This document shows, piece after piece, positions 1,461 through 13,369 of a DNA stretch of 64,000 bases. The position numbers were made by a program, and so were the translations under genes. The notes below the pieces were generated by a model that was not told where the DNA came from, made no database searches, and saw only the letters and a list, made by a program, of their open reading frames with translations. The first letter of the stretch is position 1. Each line of letters begins with the position of its first letter. Location: contig NZ_LPUT01000029.1 in NCBI RefSeq assembly GCF_001563475.1, positions 1 through 64,000 of the forward strand. The letters are read 5' to 3'. Source of the stretch: Sporosarcina sp. HYO08 (lineage in GTDB: Bacteria; Bacillota; Bacilli; Bacillales_A; Planococcaceae).

Positions 1461-2183
1461 ATGAATTGGATTTTAAGTGAAACACTTTATCCAGAAGTAC
1501 TAATAAAAATTGCAATTGCTTTAATACTAAGCTTAGTCATTGGTGTAGAAAGAGAAATTAAAAAGAAGCCTATTGGATTAAAGACAAGTGCAGTCATCGC
1601 TACTTTTAGCTGTTTGTTAACAATCGTTTCAATTGAAGCTGCTTATCTCGTCCCTTCCCGTCAAGATATCAACGTGACGATGGATCCGCTTCGACTTGCC
1701 GCACAAATTGTGAGCGGAATTGGTTTTCTCGGAGCCGGCGCTATTTTAAGAAGAGATAACGACAACATTACGGGACTGACAACTGCCGCTATGATTTGGG
1801 GCGCAGCAAGTATTGGCATCGCCGTCGGTGCAGGATTTTTCATTGAAGCCATTTTTGCGGTGCTAATGGTCATGTTTGTCATTGAAGTCATTGCGCCTTT
1901 CCTTGGTAAATTCGGTCCGAAAAGATTGCGTACGAAAGAAGCGGCTTTCGTGGTTGTGCTATCGGATAAGTCGAAAATTGACGAACTTATTACTTTCTTA
2001 AAAAAAGAAGGCATGATGATTGATAACCTTCGTATCCGCCAAATTTATACAGATGAAAGACACATTCATCATGAATTAGATTTTAGGCTATCAGCATTAA
2101 CAAAAAAACCGACATCTAAATTGTACATTGATCTATCCACTCTTCCTTATGTAGAATCCGTAGAGATTGAAATTTTTACGTAA
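1461..2183 (+). CDS. MgtC/SapB family membrane protein
   Basis: The 240-residue product has the MgtC/SapB signature: an N-terminal membrane domain (about residues 8-145) with LIGVEREI-type and GIGFLGAGAILR motifs followed by GLTTAAMIWGAASIGIAVGAG, then a soluble C-terminal domain of about 90 residues. Relatives are linked to magnesium limitation and modulation of membrane ATPase activity in pathogens; many Bacillales homologues have no assigned role. AAGGGGGAA precedes the ATG at a good distance. It stands alone, divergent from the DMT transporter. Confidence 0.85.
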   Translation: MNWILSETLYPEVLIKIAIALILSLVIGVEREIKKKPIGLKTSAVIATFSCLLTIVSIEAAYLVPSRQDINVTMDPLRLAAQIVSGIGFLGAGAILRRDNDNITGLTTAAMIWGAASIGIAVGAGFFIEAIFAVLMVMFVIEVIAPFLGKFGPKRLRTKEAAFVVVLSDKSKIDELITFLKKEGMMIDNLRIRQIYTDERHIHHELDFRLSALTKKPTSKLYIDLSTLPYVESVEIEIFT

Positions 2184-2318
2184 TTCGTCATAATCCCTCC
2201 TTCAATATGATAGGTCGCATGAAAAGTGGGTATAGATAAGAAGGTATCCAAACTGGCAACCTAACGATGAGCAAATCACAACATGTCTAAACGGACTGGA
2301 ACAAAACGGAGGGATCGT

Positions 2319-3293
2319 ATGGGAGCATTTTTCAAATTACTAAAGAATGGCAATCGACCGGCTTTACTTGCCGCGGTTGTGAACACGATCATCGGCGTAC
2401 TAAAAGCAGTTGCTTTTTTCATAACAGGCAATGTAGCAATGTTTGCAGAAATGCTGCATTCGTTTGGTGATGCGGCTAACCAACTTTTTGTTTTCATCGG
2501 TTCCGCTTTATCCAAACGCGCACCAACGCCAAGATTTCCAAATGGATTTGGCCGAGTGGTGAACCTAGTCTGTTTGGGCGCAGTCATTATCATTGCAATT
2601 ATGGCTTACGAAGCGGTGAAAGAAGGTTGGCACCATGTCCTACATCCAGTTGAATCCCAAGGGTTTTGGATTAACTTTTCGGTATTAGCCATTGGGCTTG
2701 TATTAGAATTTTTCGTTTTTTATAAGGCTGGAAAAGAGGTACTCGTTGAAGGAAACATTCAAAGTAAAGGCTTTCTCGCACCAGTTACATCGAGTTTCCT
2801 CCATTTAAATCGTGCAAAGCCTGCTACCAAGCTTGTCTTTTTGGAAGATTTAATTGCCACTTCTGGGGGAGCGCTCGCATTGATCGCCATTACCCTTGCA
2901 CATTTCTTCGGGGTATTATCGGCGGAAGGGATTGCTTCTATACTCATTGGTCTTATGATGTTTTACGTTGTCGGAAGGGTGTTTTTAGAAAATGCGCGTG
3001 GAGCGATTGGTGAAACGGATGAAGAAATGCTGAATCATATTGCCAAGCTCGTTAAAAAAGATCCCGACATTAAAGATTTACAGCGAGTAGAAGTAATCAA
3101 AGAAGGCGAGTTTTTACATGTAGAAGTGGTTGCAGAAGTAGATGCAACGCATACCGTTTCCTATGTGGACGCTATTCGCGATCGATTGATGAACACGATC
3201 CTACAACAAAAAGGCGTTCGAGACGTCATGATTGCATTCGACCAAGATGATGGCGTGATCAATTGGAAAGAATCTCGTTCTGATAAAATGTAA
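2319..3293 (+). CDS. Cation diffusion facilitator (CDF) family transporter
   Basis: This 324-residue metal efflux protein of the CDF family has an N-terminal membrane domain and a C-terminal cytoplasmic dimerisation domain (about residues 220-310, with IKEGEFLHVEVVAEVD). The metal-site helix reads AEMLHSFGD, an E/H/D variant of the usual D/H/D set, and a second acidic helix reads LEDLIATSGG. The metal (Zn, Mn, Fe or Co) cannot be assigned. The start at 2319 is preferred because GGAGGG lies just upstream; an in-frame ATG at 2283 lacks a site. A bidirectional hairpin terminator follows. Confidence 0.85.
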   Translation: MGAFFKLLKNGNRPALLAAVVNTIIGVLKAVAFFITGNVAMFAEMLHSFGDAANQLFVFIGSALSKRAPTPRFPNGFGRVVNLVCLGAVIIIAIMAYEAVKEGWHHVLHPVESQGFWINFSVLAIGLVLEFFVFYKAGKEVLVEGNIQSKGFLAPVTSSFLHLNRAKPATKLVFLEDLIATSGGALALIAITLAHFFGVLSAEGIASILIGLMMFYVVGRVFLENARGAIGETDEEMLNHIAKLVKKDPDIKDLQRVEVIKEGEFLHVEVVAEVDATHTVSYVDAIRDRLMNTILQQKGVRDVMIAFDQDDGVINWKESRSDKM

Positions 3294-3296
3294 AAA

Positions 3297-3330
3297 AATG
3301 ACGCGACGTTTATAGAACGTTCGCGTCATT
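3297..3330. terminator. Bidirectional terminator between CDF gene and alcohol dehydrogenase
   Basis: AATGACGCGA (3297-3306) pairs with TCGCGTCATT (3321-3330), with CCCCTTTT on the plus-strand side and an A-run on the other. The two flanking genes converge here. Confidence 0.8.
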
Positions 3331-3336
3331 CCCCTT

Positions 3337-4500
3337 TTATAGTGAAGCTTTTAAAATGGCTAGCACGTCTTCACGTTCTAACTTTACAAACTTGCCCAGT
3401 GGGCCGTTTGCCATTGCTTTATCCGCCATCAGTTCTAATTTAGCATCATCGATTTGATAATCCGCTAACGTTTGCGGTGCACCGATCGATGTCCAAAATG
3501 CACTCAGACGATCAATGCCTTCATATGCCACTTCTTCATCTGTTTTACCAGCAGGATCTACGCCAAAGACATTTACTGCCATTTTTGCAAATCGGGCTGG
3601 ATTCACATGGACATTATGACGCATCCAATTTGGGAATAAAATGGCTAGACCACCTGCATGCGGAATGTCGTAAACAGCGGATACCGCATGTTCAATGTCA
3701 TGGGACGCCCAGTCTCCTTGATAACCGAGACGAAGGAAATTATTTAAGCCGATTGTGCCAGCAAGTAAAATCGTTTCCCGCAAATCGTAATTTTCCAAGT
3801 CATCCACAAGTTTTGCGCCGTTGTCTATAATTGCCCGCAGGACCCCTTCGCACATTTCATCTTGTACAGGTGTATTGGTTGCTTCATTGTAGTACTGTTC
3901 GAAAATATGCGACATCATATCGACAATGCCATACACCGTTTGATCCCTCGGCACGGAAATTGTATAGGTCGGGTCCAGAATGGAGAACTTTGGAAAGTTA
4001 AACGGTCCGCCCCATCCATACTTTTCTTGCGTTTCTTCGTTCGTAATAACAGATCCTGCATTCATTTCCGAACCTGTTGCAGCAAGTGTTAAAATCGTTC
4101 CGAATGGCAGTGCGTCTTGAGGTTTTGCTTTTTGAATGACAAAGTCCCATGGGTCTCCGTCGTACTTCGCCGCAGATGCGATGAGTTTTGTACAGTCAAT
4201 GACAGAACCACCGCCGACTGCTAGAACGACATCGATGTCGTGCGCTTTACAAATCTCCGCTCCTTTTCGAGCAGTAGATACACGTGGATTTGGTTCCACA
4301 CCCGCAAGCTCATGGATTTCCATATTCGCTTCTTTTAAAAGGGACATGACTTCATCGTAAAGACCGTTCCGCTTAATACTTCCTCCGCCATACACAACAA
4401 GCACTTTTTTTCCATATTGAGAAAGCTCGTTTGTTAACTGACTAATTTGACCTTTCCCGAATATTAATTTAACAGGGTTATAAAATTCAAAATTATTCAT
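3337..4500 (-). CDS. yugJ: Iron-containing alcohol dehydrogenase (butanol dehydrogenase, YugJ/BdhA type)
   Basis: The 387-residue protein is a group III metal-dependent alcohol dehydrogenase, oxidising or reducing C4-type alcohols and aldehydes with NAD(P)H. The N-terminal nucleotide domain contains [12 protein letters not shown] and [29 protein letters not shown] is typical of the family. The C-terminal helical domain holds the metal ligands in DMMSHIFEQ and [21 protein letters not shown] precedes the ATG. Position next to a yuzA-like gene matches the B. subtilis yugJ-yuzA order. Physiological substrate is inferred only from family. Confidence 0.88.
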
Positions 4501-6227: not shown

Positions 6228-7427
6228 TTATTTAGCAAAAACCTGTTGGATTTTTTCAATCGCCCAGTCTAATTCCTCTTTTTCAATGATGAGCGGTGGT
6301 GCAAATCGAATGACGGTGTCATGTGTTTCTTTACATAACAGTCCAAGCTCTTTTAACTGTTCGCAATAAGGGCGGGCAGCTTCTGTCAATTCCACGCCGA
6401 TAAACAATCCGCGTCCGCGTACTTCTTTAATAGAAGGGTGGTCAATTTTTTCCAGTTGTTCTTTGAAGTAATTACCCAGTTCAATAGAACGCTCCGCAAG
6501 TTTTTCTTCTTCGAGCACTTCAAGCGATGCAAGGGATACTGCACATGCCATTGGGTTTCCACCAAAAGTTGAGCCGTGGGATCCCGGGTTAAATACACCC
6601 AGCACATCTTTGTTTGCAACGACACAAGATATTGGGAAAACGCCGCCGCCTAGTGCTTTACCAAGAATGTACATATCCGGAACGAAGCCTTCCCACTCTG
6701 TTGCGAACATTTTTCCTGTTCGGCAAAGACCTGCCTGGATTTCATCTGCGATGAATAAAACATTGTGTTTTTTGCACAGCTCATACGCAGCTTTCATAAA
6801 TCCTGCCGGTGGGATGATAATCCCTGCCTCACCTTGGATCGGCTCGATTAAAAACGCCGCCGTATTCGGTGTAATCGCCGCTTCAAGTGCCTTGATATCA
6901 CCGTAAGGCACTAATTGAATGCCTGGCAGCATTGGACCGAAACCGCGTTTATATTCTTCCTCAGACGATAAAGATACGGCTGTCATCGTACGGCCATGGA
7001 AGTTTCCTTCACAAGCAATAATTTCCGCTTGACCATCTGCAACCCCTTTTACATCGTAGGCCCAGCGACGTGCTGCTTTAATAGCCGTCTCAACAGCTTC
7101 TGCACCTGTGTTCATTGGCAATGCCATTTCTTTACCGGACAGCTGACAAATTTTCTCATACCACGGGCCCAACTGATCGTTGTGGAATGCACGTGACGTC
7201 AATGTTACTTTGTCAGCCTGATCTTTCAATGCTTGAATGATTTTCGGATGACGATGGCCTTGGTTCACTGCTGAATACGCAGATAGCATATCCATGTACT
7301 GATTACCTTCTGGGTTTTTCACCCATACCCCTTCAGCTTCTGAAATAACGATTGGCAGTGGATGATAGTTGTTTGCACCAAATTGTTCTGTTTGTGCAAT
7401 GACGTTTGCGGATACTGAAATTGACAT
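6228..7427 (-). CDS. rocD: Ornithine aminotransferase
   Basis: The 399-residue PLP enzyme transfers the delta-amino group of ornithine to 2-oxoglutarate, yielding glutamate semialdehyde. Seen: N-terminal [20 protein letters not shown], the [17 protein letters not shown] motif, [14 protein letters not shown] with the aspartate that contacts PLP, and [13 protein letters not shown] with the Schiff-base lysine, followed by [12 protein letters not shown] run of G+A bases (GGGAGGGAA) precedes the ATG. It lies between rocA upstream and rocG downstream on the same strand; a hairpin-forming repeat separates it from rocA, so it may also have its own promoter. Confidence 0.95.
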
Positions 7428-7455
7428 ACGATTCCCTCCCCTAATTATGTATGAA

Positions 7456-7495
7456 GGCTGTCTGAAAACGAAGAGCTAGGCACTTCCAGACAGCC
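7456..7495. repeat. Short palindromic element (repeat A), terminator-like
   Basis: GGCTGTCTG (7456-7464) pairs with CAGACAGCC (7487-7495); between them is the core CGAAGAGCTAGGCACTTC. The core is nearly repeated at 14715-14733 and partly in the long elements near 24150 and 63790. It lies 17 bases after the rocA stop. T-rich sequence follows on the plus strand, so terminator or attenuator activity between rocA and rocD is possible. Confidence 0.65.
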
Positions 7496-7512
7496 CTTTC
7501 TTGTTCCTTCAA

Positions 7513-9057
7513 TTAGAACATTTCTGAAGTTGTTTTCCCTTGCATGTGTAGTTGTAGGTAGTCCGGACCGCCCGCTTTTGAGTCAGTACCTGACATGTTA
7601 AATCCGCCGAATGGCTGGTATCCAACAATTGCACCTGTGCAAGTACGGTTGAAGTAAAGGTTTCCAACATGGAAGTCTTCACGTGCTTGCTCAATGTGGA
7701 AGCGATTATTTGTAATGACAGCACCTGTTAGACCGTAGTCTGTGTTGTTTGCAATTTCAATCGCTTCTGTAAAACTTTTCGCTTTTGTTAAACCAACAAC
7801 TGGTCCAAAGATTTCTTCTTGCATCACACGCGCGTCTGGTGCCAGATCCGCAATGACTGTTGGTGCAACGAAGTAACCTTTCGAGTCATCTCCAATACCA
7901 CCTGCAATAATGCGTCCTTCTTCTTTTCCAATTTCGATGTAGCTCATAATTTTGTCGTATGAAGCTTGATCGATTACTGGTCCAGTGAAGTTGCTTCGGT
8001 CAGCTGGATCTCCGTAAGTGATTTCTTTTGTGAGTTTTTCAACACGTGCTAGCACTTCATCATAGACATCTTCTAGGATGACTGCGCGTGAACAAGCCGA
8101 ACATTTTTGACCACTGAATCCGAATGCAGATTTAACAATCGATTCTGCTGCGAGATCTAGGTCTGCTTCGCTGTCTACGACGATTGTATCTTTACCGCCC
8201 ATTTCAGCGATTACGCGTTTTAGCCAAATTTGTCCTTCGTTCACAACAGCTGCACGCTCGTAAATGCGTGTTCCGACTTCACGTGAACCTGTGAAAGAAA
8301 TGAAACGTGTTCTTGGGTGATCGACGAGGTAGTCGCCCACTTCTGCGCCAGATCCTGGGATGAAGTTGACAACACCTGCAGGCATGCCTGCTTCTTCAAG
8401 CACTTCAATAAATTTGTATGCAACAACCGGTGTTGTAGAAGCCGGTTTTAGAAGCACTGTATTTCCTGTCACAAGTGCTGCAGCTGTTGTACCTGCCATG
8501 ATCGCGAATGCGAAGTTCCACGGGGAAATGACAACACCTACACCAAGTGGAATATAGTTAAAACGGTTGAACTCGCCTGGACGGCTCTCAACAGGAATAC
8601 CCTCTTTCAATTCCAGCATTTGACGTGCGTAGTACTCTAGGAAGTCAATTGCTTCTGCCGTATCTGCATCTGCTTCATGCCAAGGCTTGCCCGCTTCTTT
8701 TGTAAGAAGTGCCGAGAATTCGTGTTTGCGGCGACGTATGATCGCAGCAGCTTTGAATAGAACATCTGCACGGAATTCAGGTTTTACTTTTCTCCAAGTA
8801 TTAAACGTTTCATCCGCAACGTTCATCGCTTTTTCAGCAAGATCTCTGCTTGCTTTTGAAACAGCACCGATCACTTCTTCTTTGTTCGCTGGGTTTGAAG
8901 AAACTAATTTTTCTTCAGTCATTACACGCTCTCCGCCAATAATTAACGGGTAATCTTGGCCAAGATATCCTTCAACCGTTTTCATACCTGCTAAAAAAGC
9001 TTGTCGGTTTTCTTCTACCGAAAAATCAGTAAATGGTTCGTGTTTGTATGGAATCAT
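7513..9057 (-). CDS. rocA: 1-pyrroline-5-carboxylate dehydrogenase (RocA)
   Basis: The 514-residue aldehyde dehydrogenase oxidises P5C/glutamate semialdehyde to glutamate. Seen: [20 protein letters not shown] of the NAD site, [13 protein letters not shown], the general-base motif AEMGGKD, the catalytic cysteine in [12 protein letters not shown], and a C-terminal [18 protein letters not shown]. The start at 9057 (MIPYKHEPF) matches the family and has GGAGGAAAT before it; the open frame extends 25 codons further without a site. It is divergent from the RocR-like regulator, and two inverted repeats lie between them. Confidence 0.94.
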
Positions 9058-9082
9058 TCCATTTCCTCCTCTAACTATTGAA

Positions 9083-9101
9083 ACGCAAAAAATATTTGCA
9101 T
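9083..9101. promoter_or_regulatory. Inverted repeat 2 upstream of rocA (putative activator site)
   Basis: ACGCAAAAAATATTTGCAT on the plus strand is a 6-7-6 inverted repeat: ACGCAA and TTGCAT around seven A/T bases. Its centre is 26 bases from the rocA start and 44 bases from the centre of a second copy. Family knowledge: RocR of B. subtilis binds tandem palindromic activating sequences. Assignment here is inference. Confidence 0.55.
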
Positions 9102-9126
9102 TACAGAATTGATTACATCTATAATA

Positions 9127-9145
9127 ATGCAAAAGATTGTTGCAT
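9127..9145. promoter_or_regulatory. Inverted repeat 1 between rocA and its regulator (putative activator site)
   Basis: ATGCAAAAGATTGTTGCAT is a perfect 6-7-6 inverted repeat (ATGCAA and TTGCAT). With the copy at 9083-9101 it forms a tandem pair spaced about four DNA turns apart in the 144-base divergent gap. No -24/-12 sigma-54 promoter with correct GG-N10-GC spacing was found in the gap. Confidence 0.6.
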
Positions 9146-9201
9146 ATTTCAAGTCCGAATTCACAATTCTTTCAAAAAAATGTGCGGATGGTGGTTTATA
9201 A

Positions 9202-10515
9202 ATGAAAAAATCGGATAAAATGCTCCTTCCTTTTTATCGGTTTGTCGTTGAGAAGGCCGGCGTCGGCGTCCATGCCATCAACCTAGATGGACGAACTATA
9301 CTATACAATGACAAAATGAAAGAAATCGAGGGTCTTGCATTAGAAGATGTTGAAGACCGCTCCATTTTGGAGCTTTTCAACTTTGCACAAGAAGAAAGTA
9401 CGCTATTGAAAGTGCTGCAAAGTGGTAAGGAACAATTAAACATCAAACAAACCTATTGGAATCGAAATGGCACCGAAATTACAACGATCAATGATACATA
9501 CCCAATTTTTCAAGAAGACAACCTAATAGGCGCTGTTGAACTTGCACAAGATGTAACAGCACTTGAAAAATTCGTCCTGCATCCCCTGCGAAAAAACAGC
9601 GACCCCGTTACGTTCAATCAAATTGTCGCAGCAAGCGAATCTATGCAGTCAATCATTGCAACGGCAAAAAAAGCGTCACTTGCAAAACTGCCGGTTTTAC
9701 TGATCGGTGAATCAGGCACAGGGAAAGATTTGATCGCGGAAAGCATTCACAATGATTCATCACCTTCTAACGAAGATTTTTTTACGCTTCATTGTCATAA
9801 CGCGGATCCCCTTTTAATTGATCATTTGGACGAAGCGTTGGATAATACGAATTTGCTCACTCTATTTTGTGAAAGGATCGATCTTCTATCCATCCCCCTT
9901 CAACAAAAGCTATTGGCAATTTTGGTGGACGAACAAAACACCCATCGCCAAATGATCGCAAGCATCGGGGACGATCCTGTAGAACTGATCGCATCAGGGG
10001 AATTATTAAAGGATTTATATTATTTCTTCGCCTCGCTTACAATCCGAATTCCGCCGCTTCGCAAACGAAAAGAAGACATTATGCCGTTTGTCCAAGCTTA
10101 TTTTGAAAAACGCGGTGGGCGATACGGAACGAGTCTGCTAGATGTGAAACCTGAAGTTGAACAACTTTTTATGACCTATGACTGGCCCGGCAATATGCGT
10201 GAATTAGAATTTTTGCTCGATGAAGTTTCTTCACTCGCGACGACAGAAACTGTACTGACGTTCGATATGCTGCCGCTTCATTTTCGAATGAAAGCAACAG
10301 ACATGACATGCGAAGTAATGCATGCGACTGATTTTATCGTGCAGCCTTCAAAAGAACTCATGCCCCTCGACCAATTTTTAAAAGAAGCTGAACAATATTA
10401 TTTGCAAAAAGCATTGAAATTAAATGAGGAGAATATCACAAAAACTGCTACTGCTTTAGGGATGAGCAGGCAAAATTTACAATATCGTTTACGCAAAATA
10501 AAAAATGAGGACTAG
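9202..10515 (+). CDS. RocR-like PAS/AAA+/Fis regulator with degenerate sigma-54 activation domain
   Basis: The 437-residue protein has the RocR layout: an N-terminal PAS domain (about 15-125), an AAA+ core (140-365) and a C-terminal Fis-type helix-turn-helix (about 388-433, ITKTATALGMSRQNLQYRLRK). Walker A is intact (GESGTGKD, 169-176). The segment that should carry GAFTGA is missing, leaving about 16 residues fewer than usual between Walker A and Walker B. Walker B reads TLFCERI instead of TLFLDEI, and the arginine-finger region reads LLKDLYYFF. It probably no longer activates sigma-54 polymerase and may act TyrR-like at sigma-A promoters. Its place, divergent from rocA, points to control of the roc genes. 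Confidence 0.85.
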   Translation: MKKSDKMLLPFYRFVVEKAGVGVHAINLDGRTILYNDKMKEIEGLALEDVEDRSILELFNFAQEESTLLKVLQSGKEQLNIKQTYWNRNGTEITTINDTYPIFQEDNLIGAVELAQDVTALEKFVLHPLRKNSDPVTFNQIVAASESMQSIIATAKKASLAKLPVLLIGESGTGKDLIAESIHNDSSPSNEDFFTLHCHNADPLLIDHLDEALDNTNLLTLFCERIDLLSIPLQQKLLAILVDEQNTHRQMIASIGDDPVELIASGELLKDLYYFFASLTIRIPPLRKRKEDIMPFVQAYFEKRGGRYGTSLLDVKPEVEQLFMTYDWPGNMRELEFLLDEVSSLATTETVLTFDMLPLHFRMKATDMTCEVMHATDFIVQPSKELMPLDQFLKEAEQYYLQKALKLNEENITKTATALGMSRQNLQYRLRKIKNED

Positions 10516-11051: not shown

Positions 11052-13223
11052 TCAAAAAATAAAGAAAAGAATACTATTTACTTTCCAACAAGCATCCGTT
11101 TCATCCCATATGAGCCAGGCGCCATATTCAAAGTTCCCCTCTTGATAGTAAAGCACTGGCGCTAACGGTACACCGTTTGTTTCATTTGTACCCAACTCAA
11201 CAGATATGGAATCGGCACCATTGAATGCTGGCTGCTTTAATGGCTGCCATTTCTCCGTATACACCTCAAGCGGCGGCTTGTCATCGTTGTTTATTAAAAG
11301 ATGCCACATCGTTTCGGCGTCTTCGAGATCATTCGCGTAGTAATACATGCCGATCACGACGAGCGGGTGGACGTCTTGTAGCACCGAAAAATCATGCTGT
11401 GCATGAAATTGTTCGTAAGTCTCCCTTACCAAGTCTTGGTAATCAAGGTCATTGAGTGCAACCTGTTCGGGTCCTCCGTCATCCTCTGCGGCAAACGATA
11501 GCGAAAAGGCCTCATCGTTTTTTGCCTGATCCATAAGCATTGCTAGATGAAAGGGTTCTAAACGATCATAGCTTTCAGACGTCGTCCAGCCACTTACTTC
11601 CATTTCCTTTACGATGGACCCCATTAGATAACCGGTCGGGGAGGCTTCCCCCGATGCTGCCATTTTCCGCCAACTATCCCGTAAGTCCATTTTTACTTGC
11701 CCTGTGTCATCAAAAACAAAGGCATTGCCGTCATAACCCTTCACAAGTGTTTGAAAGATCCATCCAAATTGACTAAAAAGAAAATCGTATGCCATACTTT
11801 CTGATTTGGAAGTGATTAACGACTGCTCCATTTCCAGTAACCCATCGACCGTTTCTTCGAGCGTATACCAAAAAATTGGTTCAAAATCATCTTGGTAATA
11901 AATAAATGGCTCTTTTTCCAACAATGTCATATAACCCGCCATGTCTTTATGTAATGCTTCACGCATTTGCTGGCTAAGTGCATTCGATTTGAATTTCGGA
12001 TAAAGCATCGGCCAAATCGGATCATCCTGAAAATGAAGATTTTGCTTTTCCATACTTTGGATGATCTGATCATCTTCAACCTTTATATTTTCATCAATAA
12101 ATTGTTGCAAGTCGAAGTTTGGATTTTCTTTCGCGCTATTAAGTTTCCATTCATACCGTGAAAATATGTTCGTATAGACTGCCTGCAGGATAAACTGTTT
12201 GTCGAAATAATCTGCTATGAAAGCCTCGCTCCCTTTACGATCATTGGTAAGTGGATGCTTCATAAGGTCTGCCACCATTTCAGAAGGCAGCGTGATCGAT
12301 TGAAGGATTTCTTCATACGCGGCTTGCGTTACTTTTCGATCCAATTTTTCTTTATTTTCGAGTTGATGTTCTAATTGTTTGATCAATTTCTCAAACTGGC
12401 TGCGCGCACGCGTACTAAATACTTCTTCATGATAATTTAACTTGATAAGTGCTTTTTCGGAAAACCCTAATACTTTGTATTTATCATCTATTTCTTGTTC
12501 GAATGCTATTTTTAAGTTTTCGATGTATTTTTCAGATCTTGCGTTTTGATAATCTTCACTTGTTAGGACGGAAGTAATTGCCAAAACTAAGAGGCTTAGG
12601 ACACCGATTCCCCATATGTATAATGATTTTTTAGACGGTGCTTGTTTTTCTTGTTGCACATCATTCGGTTTGTCCTCTTCGGCAGAGGATAACGATATTT
12701 CTTCTGTCCATTGATCCACTTCAACCTTTGTAGACAATCGCGCGTACGATTTGGCAAGTAATTGTAACCGTTTTTCTAATTGATCGATTTGTAATTGTTC
12801 TTTTGCCTGCCGAATTTTTTCTTCTGGATTAGTGAGTCCAGTAATTGCCGTAATGTCCTCTGCACTTTTTCTATGAAACTCGGTAAGTATGAGGGAAACT
12901 TTATCCTCTCTTTCAAGCAGGATAATTTCTTTATGCAGCATTTCATCCTCTTCAAACGATAAAAATCCTTTTTCGTTTGGCGGCGAAGGTGACTTCTCCC
13001 GTATGTACGACCAAGCAATTTGATAAAGCTTTAATAATCCGTCCCTTCCCCTATTGAAAGCGTCTTGTTTTGAATACAGCTCAAGAACTGCCATTTCTGT
13101 TATTTTTCCAGCTTGTTCTTTTGATAAACCGAATTGAAATGCGAATTGATAAATGCTTTTCGCAGATTGGTCTAACCACTTTTCAAAAGCACGCTGCTCT
13201 TTGTTTACGTCGCTTTCCTCCAA
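11052..13223 (-). CDS. Membrane-anchored protein with sigma-factor-like N-terminus (unrecognised family)
   Basis: I do not recognise the family of this 723-residue protein. Residues 13-76 resemble ECF sigma region 2 (SIYQFAFQFGLSKEQAGKIT, then LLKLYQIAWSYIRE). Residues 96-145 resemble region 4 (a KVSLILTEFHRKSAEDITAI stretch, then EEKIRQAKEQL), the usual DNA-binding helix-turn-helix. A low-complexity acidic linker leads to one membrane helix (about 200-220), and about 500 residues follow, predicted outside the cell, Glu/Asp/aromatic-rich with no domain I can name. The start is a TTG with GGGGGGAG six bases upstream. It is a lone gene between yugI and an NSS transporter. A membrane-tethered, signal-sensing sigma-like regulator is an inference; the head could also be inactive as a sigma factor. 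Confidence 0.7.
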   Translation of the reverse strand: MEESDVNKEQRAFEKWLDQSAKSIYQFAFQFGLSKEQAGKITEMAVLELYSKQDAFNRGRDGLLKLYQIAWSYIREKSPSPPNEKGFLSFEEDEMLHKEIILLEREDKVSLILTEFHRKSAEDITAITGLTNPEEKIRQAKEQLQIDQLEKRLQLLAKSYARLSTKVEVDQWTEEISLSSAEEDKPNDVQQEKQAPSKKSLYIWGIGVLSLLVLAITSVLTSEDYQNARSEKYIENLKIAFEQEIDDKYKVLGFSEKALIKLNYHEEVFSTRARSQFEKLIKQLEHQLENKEKLDRKVTQAAYEEILQSITLPSEMVADLMKHPLTNDRKGSEAFIADYFDKQFILQAVYTNIFSRYEWKLNSAKENPNFDLQQFIDENIKVEDDQIIQSMEKQNLHFQDDPIWPMLYPKFKSNALSQQMREALHKDMAGYMTLLEKEPFIYYQDDFEPIFWYTLEETVDGLLEMEQSLITSKSESMAYDFLFSQFGWIFQTLVKGYDGNAFVFDDTGQVKMDLRDSWRKMAASGEASPTGYLMGSIVKEMEVSGWTTSESYDRLEPFHLAMLMDQAKNDEAFSLSFAAEDDGGPEQVALNDLDYQDLVRETYEQFHAQHDFSVLQDVHPLVVIGMYYYANDLEDAETMWHLLINNDDKPPLEVYTEKWQPLKQPAFNGADSISVELGTNETNGVPLAPVLYYQEGNFEYGAWLIWDETDACWKVNSILFFIF

Positions 13224-13369
13224 ACATCTCCCCCCTTTTTTACCTTATACTCCTAATATACCAAAGAATATCCCTTTATTTGCTAGAAAGGGGACAGTGA
13301 CTTCCAATGTCGATTCATGTAGAATAAAGAGATGTTTTAAATTGCTAACAATAGAAAGTGTGGGTGTAC

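Follow-up and report, generated by a model that had tools for sequence, protein, structure and literature searches.

A degenerate ECF sigma-like head fused to a membrane-bound presumed anti-sigma factor in Sporosarcina: a probable intramolecular sigma mimic

When a membrane protein carries a sigma factor at its cytoplasmic end, is that sigma still at work? The question is raised by a reverse-strand gene at positions 11,052 to 13,223 of a 64,000-nucleotide stretch from Sporosarcina sp. HYO08 (contig NZ_LPUT01000029.1, positions 1 to 64,000; hereafter the window). An initial annotation had read this open reading frame (ORF) as one chain with a head resembling extracytoplasmic function (ECF) sigma factors, a single membrane helix and a large extracytoplasmic domain, and its placement holds, the frame running uninterrupted for 723 residues. 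The head is a sigma by descent, the fused gene and its split relatives occupy one syntenic locus, the residues of sigma activity and the linker have been lost, and the window gene has no ECF-type promoter. We propose that the protein is a membrane sensor derived from a fused ECF sigma/anti-sigma pair, in which the sigma half now acts as an intramolecular sigma mimic and not as an active sigma, a reading to which we assign a probability of roughly 0.6.

Ancestry of the head and layout of the chain

Searched with the window protein alone, Pfam returned no sigma match, only chance families (DZF_N, ARPP-1), and NCBIfam a mere trace of sigma (PRK12522, E 0.17), so relatives were needed for testing a similarity that had been noticed by eye. 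A profile of 10 separate sigma proteins without fused rows (profile A2) recovered the window head when the genome it comes from was searched in all six frames (E 5.4e-5, 23.7 bits). Tested directly on the head, the separate sigmas scored 41.4 bits against a maximum of 7.4 among 981 scored shuffles, whereas a fused-head profile from which the window row was excluded scored 121.5 against a maximum of 12.1 among 965 scored shuffles (1000 shuffles of the head were made, those unscored having no match). A profile of 20 fused proteins, window included (profile A1), matched SigW (5wuq) at E 6.6e-13 as separate sigma2 and sigma4 stretches (i-Evalue 1.4e-5 for the sigma2 stretch), and Pfam Sigma70_r4_2 was found at E<=1 in 14 of these 20 members, the best at 1.6e-8. 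For a separate sigma gene of a relative (locus L050) the Pfam values were 6.1e-14 (Sigma70_r2) and 2.4e-17 (r4_2).

An AlphaFold2 (AF2) model of residues 1-190, built with 11 sequences (mean pLDDT 86.3, pTM 0.82), has three and then four head helices, followed by two more at 149-161 and 169-183. ECF sigmas, SigW included, and PhyR rank first for this model in Foldseek and VIA-align, far above cyclins (Z ~5). The five best Foldseek matches reached E 4.6e-4 to 7.2e-4 (TMt 0.65-0.71) and the four best in VIA-align Z 14.2-15.4, where the nearest folds were sigmas solved with anti-sigmas, SigG1 and PhyR. Profiles and structure comparison agree that the head has the sigma2 plus sigma4 fold of ECF sigmas and sigma ancestry, and the corresponding region of the homologues is related to sigma factors too. 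The domain boundaries first drawn by eye were nearly right, except that sigma4 begins nearer residue 86 and that the stretch 147-199, then left unnamed, is a presumed anti-sigma domain.

Only one strong hydropathy peak occurs in the chain, in keeping with the single membrane helix of the initial annotation: 19-residue windows starting at 200-205 reach 2.22, the best elsewhere is 0.97, and the net charge is +2 before the helix and -1 after it. The large ectodomain and the one-chain sensor layout likewise stood. A motif like LEKRLQLLAKSYAR, found in the stretch before the helix, opens the separate membrane protein of relatives (e.g., FEKRMELLKKSYER), which is presumed to be an anti-sigma from its operon, gene overlap, single membrane helix and short cytoplasmic segment. 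It had been remarked that no anti-sigma adjoins the gene; the presumed anti-sigma is part of this very chain, and relatives encode it and the sigma as two genes that overlap. Split homologues at the locus and the helix at 201-221 together indicate a sigma head fused to a membrane-bound, presumed anti-sigma part, the layout of IutY-type proteins. Pfam and NCBIfam gave nothing convincing on the separate membrane proteins, and a profile of them found no relative among solved chains (best E 0.028), leaving the anti-sigma domain and the ectodomain without a family name. In the AF2 model the two predicted helices at 149-161 and 169-183 fit the count of a CnrY-like two-helix anti-sigma domain, in which the first cytoplasmic helix lies on sigma4 and the second on sigma2. 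The last ~100 residues of the ectodomain (617-722) are tentatively NTF2-like, with middling VIA-align matches (Z 6.2-7.9) to AtzH, the CaMKII association domain, PBP5fm and the RsgI9 S1C-NTF2 bi-domain (7sjy, Z 6.8), all of which we take to share the NTF2 fold.

The locus and what the fused heads have lost

Fused genes were found at the same locus in relatives, where two architectures occur: a gene for a sigma of ~184 residues (strong Sigma70_r2 and r4_2) overlapping the first part of a membrane-protein gene (~400-745 residues), or head and membrane protein as one gene. The 80 genomes read were chosen from genomes with matches and are not a census; 22 carry the pair only, 20 the pair and at least one fusion, 37 a fusion only and 1 a broken copy. 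Neighbours on both sides are the same in 77 of 82 loci, the remaining five reaching a contig end. Downstream lies a gene for an S1-domain protein (80/82), and upstream at least one of an SNF-family transporter, a DUF1871 gene and an aminotransferase (79/82). In the family search the membrane protein was matched at E<=1e-6 in 170 of 261 genomes, weakly in some, and a canonical sigma at E<=1e-60 in 90 of the 261, among them G169, which is a fused intermediate; the order-level search also covered 261 genomes, and all those listed belong to the same family. A strong match to the body, the part of the chain behind the head, is missing in 30 of the 68 genomes of the genus. At E<=1e-60 the canonical-sigma profile found no canonical sigma in the window genome or in genus g37, and the six separate ECF matches of the window genome stay at or below 94 bits, compared with 228-369 for canonical sigmas.

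The split pair is taken as ancestral, because an intact sigma cannot easily re-arise from a degenerate one. Two fused genes of genus g36 (loci L169 and L177; genomes G161 and G169) are intermediates, keeping the linker and Trp69, with recognition-helix charges of -1 and 0. A quick body tree of 113 rows counted 6-7 changes; three S-labelled rows in it were broken or contig-end pieces of fused genes and were then dropped. In a 51-row body tree (rows picked by locus from those left, their first 430 residues, model LG+G4), clades A, A2 and C fall on one side (95/86), clade I within genus g36 and clade B within the Sporosarcina pairs. Forcing all fusions into one clade gave p 0.048 with B, which is borderline, and p 0.00065 with B and I. 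Fusion is thus well supported as having happened independently at least twice, in the A/A2/C group and in clade I, and clade B is likely a third case. The head tree instead unites clade B with the other degenerate heads, and a Trp at position 21 is common to A, B and C; this placement may reflect convergence, long branches or a head taken from its neighbour.

Sigma-activity residues were counted, in canonical numbering, in 66 degenerate fused heads and 42 separate sigmas (L206, with an incomplete head, was left out); heads were gathered by profile match at >=30 bits, which badly decayed heads would escape. Trp69 is present in 42 of 42 separate sigmas and in none of the 66 degenerate heads, from which Tyr82 and Gln48 are also absent, and linker columns 85, 88 and 91 are gapped in all 66, window included, and filled in both intermediates. 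Judged by residues only, region 2.2 retains Asp45 in 3, Gln48 in 0 and Glu49 in 14 of the 66. In the recognition helix, K160, R162 and R165 persist in only 2, 3 and 1 heads, and its mean charge falls from +4.3 in separate sigmas to -1.35, the window standing at 0. These residues serve in promoter melting, core binding and contact with the -35 element. The window head itself has Lys65 for Trp69, Ser78 for Tyr82, Glu43 for Gln48 and Lys40 for Asp45, and its recognition helix Glu134 for K160, Lys136 for R162 and Gln139 for R165, K167 staying as Lys141. The positions that the degenerate heads do keep belong to the core and to the start of region 4 (G37 66/66, Q35 63, F114 66, E116 65, D117 66, H121 60, L127 60, F140 57), and mean retention of conserved sigma positions is 0.74 at the start of region 4.1, 0.15 in region 2.3-2.4 and 0.23 in the recognition helix. 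What the head lacks of a functional ECF sigma is thus the equipment for promoter recognition and melting (region 2.3/2.4 aromatics, basic region 4.2 helix) and the sigma2-sigma4 linker. The suggestion that the head regulates as a sigma after release is not supported on these counts, while the accompanying suspicion that it may be degenerate is supported. A Trp occupies canonical position 21 (Trp16 of the window) in 56 of the 66 degenerate heads, across four genera, and in 0 of 2 intermediates, whereas 41 of 41 sigmas with the column filled have Leu there; it is a derived residue common to the disarmed heads.

Promoters were scanned for TGAAAC-N14-18-CGTAT within one mismatch upstream of genes, clade A being counted only for genes first in their locus. 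This ECF-type box, which resembles the sigmaW consensus, precedes 35 of 42 separate-sigma operons (29 exactly), compared with 2% of shuffled DNA; the 7 canonical misses are partly technical, because each upstream stretch ends at the earliest start codon that could be read, which comes too soon in some sigma genes. Among the fusions it was found in 2/2 intermediates (exact), 1/3 of clade B, 7/16 of clade C, 1/14 of clade A and 0/2 of clade A2. The box is rarer where the head is degenerate, yet clade C shows no strict tie. No ECF-type promoter lies upstream of the window gene (best 3 mismatches, the same as shuffled DNA), and exact TGAAAC-N16-CGTATC occurs once in the window genome, as it does in the reversed control. 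A possible extended -10 box, TGGTATATT, lies where ancestral operons carry the ECF-type promoter and was likened by eye to boxes of the TGCTATAAT type at other fused genes; it is absent from the output of the consensus scan.

Table 1. Features of the fused gene and of an adjoining gene, in window positions (residues refer to the 723-residue protein)
Feature	Position	Strand	Basis
ORF	11052-13223	-	TTG start, 723 codons, no internal stop
Sigma2-like part, residues ~5-75, three helices	12999..13211	-	AF2 helices 5-30, 35-51, 60-74; profile; VIA-align
Trp16 (canonical position 21)	about 13176-13178	-	alignment
Junction, residues ~80-85, much of ancestral sigma2-sigma4 linker missing	12969..12986	-	alignment; columns 85, 88, 91 gapped
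Sigma4-like part, residues 86-145	12789..12968	-	AF2 helices 91-101, 105-115, 121-128, 133-144; FEEDxxLH at 90-97; altered recognition helix
Presumed anti-sigma domain, residues 147-199, motif LEKRLQLLAKSYAR	12627..12785	-	AF2 helices 149-161, 169-183
Single transmembrane helix, residues 201-221, Lys-Lys on inner side	12561..12623	-	hydropathy; charge
Extracytoplasmic sensor-like part, residues 222-723	11055..12560	-	homology to ectodomain of relatives' separate membrane proteins
Ectodomain end, residues 617-722, tentatively NTF2/SnoaL-like	11058..11375	-	VIA-align
Possible extended -10 box TGGTATATT	13255..13263	-	by eye; tentative
PAS/sigma54-activator-like regulator	9202-10515	+	Sigma54_activ_2 1.1e-17; HTH_8 2.6e-7

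The regulator gene in the last row of Table 1 adjoins the locus in most relatives; by eye its product is without the GAFTGA loop, which we take to be needed for sigma54 contact. Ten named loci carrying relatives comprise seven from Sporosarcina and one each from Filibacter, Psychrobacillus and Arthrobacter, the last (L143, titled Arthrobacter beigongshangensis REN13) having the fused-gene layout of a locus in the window's genus (G061:C18), so that this record probably bears the wrong organism name. At L032, L033 and L037 a window-type fused gene has another, longer fused gene of 855-871 residues directly upstream (at 1778-4345, 7250-9865 and 6506-9088, respectively), whose body is like the separate membrane protein and whose head is like the degenerate ones; it may represent a head swap. 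Apparently broken fused copies, with head and body in separate frames, were seen at L045 (7506-9246), L157 (8647-10769), L040 (5548-7729) and L201 (4440-7048), and frequent gain and loss of copies at the locus therefore seems likely.

Proposed docking in cis and competing explanations

Under the reading that we favour, the genes of an ECF sigma/presumed anti-sigma pair fused into one chain, and the sigma half has lost most of its promoter- and polymerase-binding parts and is kept as a sigma-shaped domain. The head would stay docked on its own anti-sigma domain, filling and stabilising it, as a self-occupied anti-sigma. A signal reaching the ectodomain would then change the cytoplasmic module, no active sigma being freed; where an intact pair adjoins the fusion, the extra receptor would probably tune that pair by competing for signal or protease.

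Two lines of evidence point to docking in cis. The docking-type motif FEEDxELH is retained at 0.92 in the 24 fused heads whose genome has a canonical sigma and at 0.91 in the 42 orphans, compared with 0.03 and 0.07 for DNA- and RNA polymerase-contacting positions (both residue sets were chosen by hand after the residue counts), and the anti-sigma helix motif is present in 23 of 24 and 39 of 42, one further loose-pattern match being spurious. Because FEEDxELH is kept equally with and without a canonical sigma, the constraint on it is independent of a partner in trans, which favours docking in cis. Anti-sigmas contact both sigma domains, according to PMC7406223. In the model, sigma2 and sigma4 are placed as in RpoE/NepR, CnrH/CnrY and SigW/RsiW (Z 15.4, 15.0 and 14.6; root-mean-square deviation, rmsd, 2.6-3.4), and polymerase-bound sigmas align over both domains in VIA-align only at rmsd 21.6-27.9. 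This compact pose speaks more for docking in cis than for a role in trans or on polymerase, and docking of the head on the anti-sigma helices of its own chain would be the best explanation.

Several observations weigh against it. Retention levels are partly circular, the residues having been picked by hand, although comparing with orphans is free of this, and individual residues vary between the two groups (L120 1.0 vs 0.71, H121 0.79 vs 0.98). The compact pose is weaker evidence than it seems and no proof of an anti-sigma: SigG1 (Z 13.4) and SigJ (Z 10.7), with no anti-sigma in their entry titles, share it, and some anti-sigma-bound sigmas match poorly, SigK/RskA at rmsd 8.7 and AlgU/MucA and sigmaE/RseA in just one of the two domains. 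For the second anti-sigma helix the pLDDT is ~75, and AF2 has seen anti-sigma-bound sigmas. Promoter evidence is mixed, the box being kept by 7/16 clade C genes and one clade A gene. In the window head, region 2.3-2.4 still carries a charge of +3 (against +3.95 in sigmas and a mean of -1.48 in fused heads), and its recognition helix retains Lys136 and Lys141. Finally, heads evolve faster than bodies in most of the pairs compared below.

Foremost among the alternatives, and doubtful in our judgement, is that the head acts in trans as an anti-anti-sigma like PhyR, capturing the anti-sigma of a real sigma, in the neighbouring or another ECF pair, and so releasing that sigma. The fold is near that of PhyR (Z 12.9, 12.8, 12.7), Pfam PhyR_sigma-like is weakly matched by 2 of 20 fused members (best E 0.051), in NCBIfam the L031 fusion hits the PhyR model at 7e-5, and the intact pair stands alongside fused copies in 20 of the 80 genomes. 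Yet 37 of the 80 have only the fusion, the window genome and genus g37 yielded no canonical sigma in the search at E<=1e-60, the head motif is as conserved in orphans, and the head shares a chain with its own anti-sigma domain. Comparably tentative is a transmembrane one-component sigma mimic, in which the ectodomain would sense an envelope signal and the degenerate sigma/anti-sigma module would be the effector: a switch resembling PhyR, though built in cis and membrane-bound, that acts on another sigma/anti-sigma pair or on polymerase, independently of the ancestral sigma.

Somewhat less likely still is that the head is an evolutionary leftover, only a folding scaffold for the anti-sigma helices on an inert cytoplasmic side, with function confined to the ectodomain. 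Ratios of nonsynonymous to synonymous substitution (dN/dS) were taken from the 14 closest fused pairs of relatives, which share rows and do not include the window; three with synonymous divergence (dS) <0.1 were set aside (head ratios 0.82, 0.62, 0.30). Over the same 11 usable pairs the ratio is 0.12-0.58 for heads and 0.08-0.42 for bodies, compared with 0-0.19 for separate sigmas (13 pairs with a value). Heads have the higher ratio in 9 of 11 pairs, so that some of their change reflects relaxed decay; with several fused copies broken and most sigma-activity residues gone, this is what a leftover would show. Nevertheless, head dN/dS is <1 in all 14 pairs, F114, D117 and G37 are near-invariant, and the derived Trp at position 21 recurs in four genera (among heads of >=30 bits). 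The heads of relatives are under purifying selection, yet relaxed. Least credible, and very improbable, is a membrane-tethered active sigma whose head, freed by regulated proteolysis in the manner of IutY (of the Prc/RseP type), joins RNA polymerase and directs its own regulon: the architecture is the same as that of known sigma/anti-sigma fusions (PMC8999054), the window head keeps its basic region 2.3-2.4, and the fused genes of G161 and G169, with Trp69, linker and an exact ECF-type promoter, suggest that an active fusion may have existed early or persist there, but the window and all 66 degenerate heads have lost Trp69, Tyr82, Gln48 and the linker columns, the recognition helix is no longer basic, and neither the window gene nor the genome-wide count of exact matches points to a surviving promoter.

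Relation to known systems

Fusions and sigma mimics are each known; their combination, in cis on a membrane anti-sigma and with its stages at one locus, was not seen in the literature searched and would be new. For this family, no degenerate sigma fused to its anti-sigma was found in that literature, in which subscription journals are thinly covered and the 2021 ECF reclassification paper is not included. One conserved locus shows a working sigma/anti-sigma operon, a recent fusion with an almost intact sigma and a fused mimic that no longer has the ancestral promoter; in this natural series the passage from functioning regulator to mimic can be studied. A second origin of sigma mimicry besides PhyR, in Bacillales and in cis, would make its evolution testable across sister species, and genome surveys should leave such proteins out of their sigma factor counts.

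Known sigma/anti-sigma fusions named in PMC8999054 are IutY (ECF243, Pseudomonas putida), ECF48, ECF52, ECF53 (SCO4117) and ECF36. Like the window protein, they join a sigma-type head and a membrane-bound anti-sigma part in one chain. According to the same paper, however, proteolysis leaves them with an active sigma (demonstrated for IutY and expected of the rest), whereas the window head is without most DNA- and core-binding residues and much of the linker. ECF48, ECF52 and ECF53 are there described with a zinc finger, unlike the window chain, whose sole cysteine is at 712. The short two-helix anti-sigma part looks more CnrY-type than zinc-type RsiW, judging from the model and PMC7406223. With SigW/RsiW and CnrH/CnrY the protein shares the head fold and the compact sigma2-sigma4 arrangement, but these are two proteins each and here there is one. 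PhyR belongs to the general stress response of alphaproteobacteria. Its sigma-like domain, as portrayed in PMC8103513, has the correct ECF fold with degenerated promoter- and RNA polymerase-contact regions and is kept for anti-sigma binding, and the window head is likewise a degenerate sigma-like domain (VIA-align Z 10.0-12.9). PhyR differs in having a receiver domain, for which the window protein gave no Pfam match up to E 10, and in acting in trans on NepR, whereas the mimic proposed here is fused to a transmembrane, presumed anti-sigma, in Bacillales.

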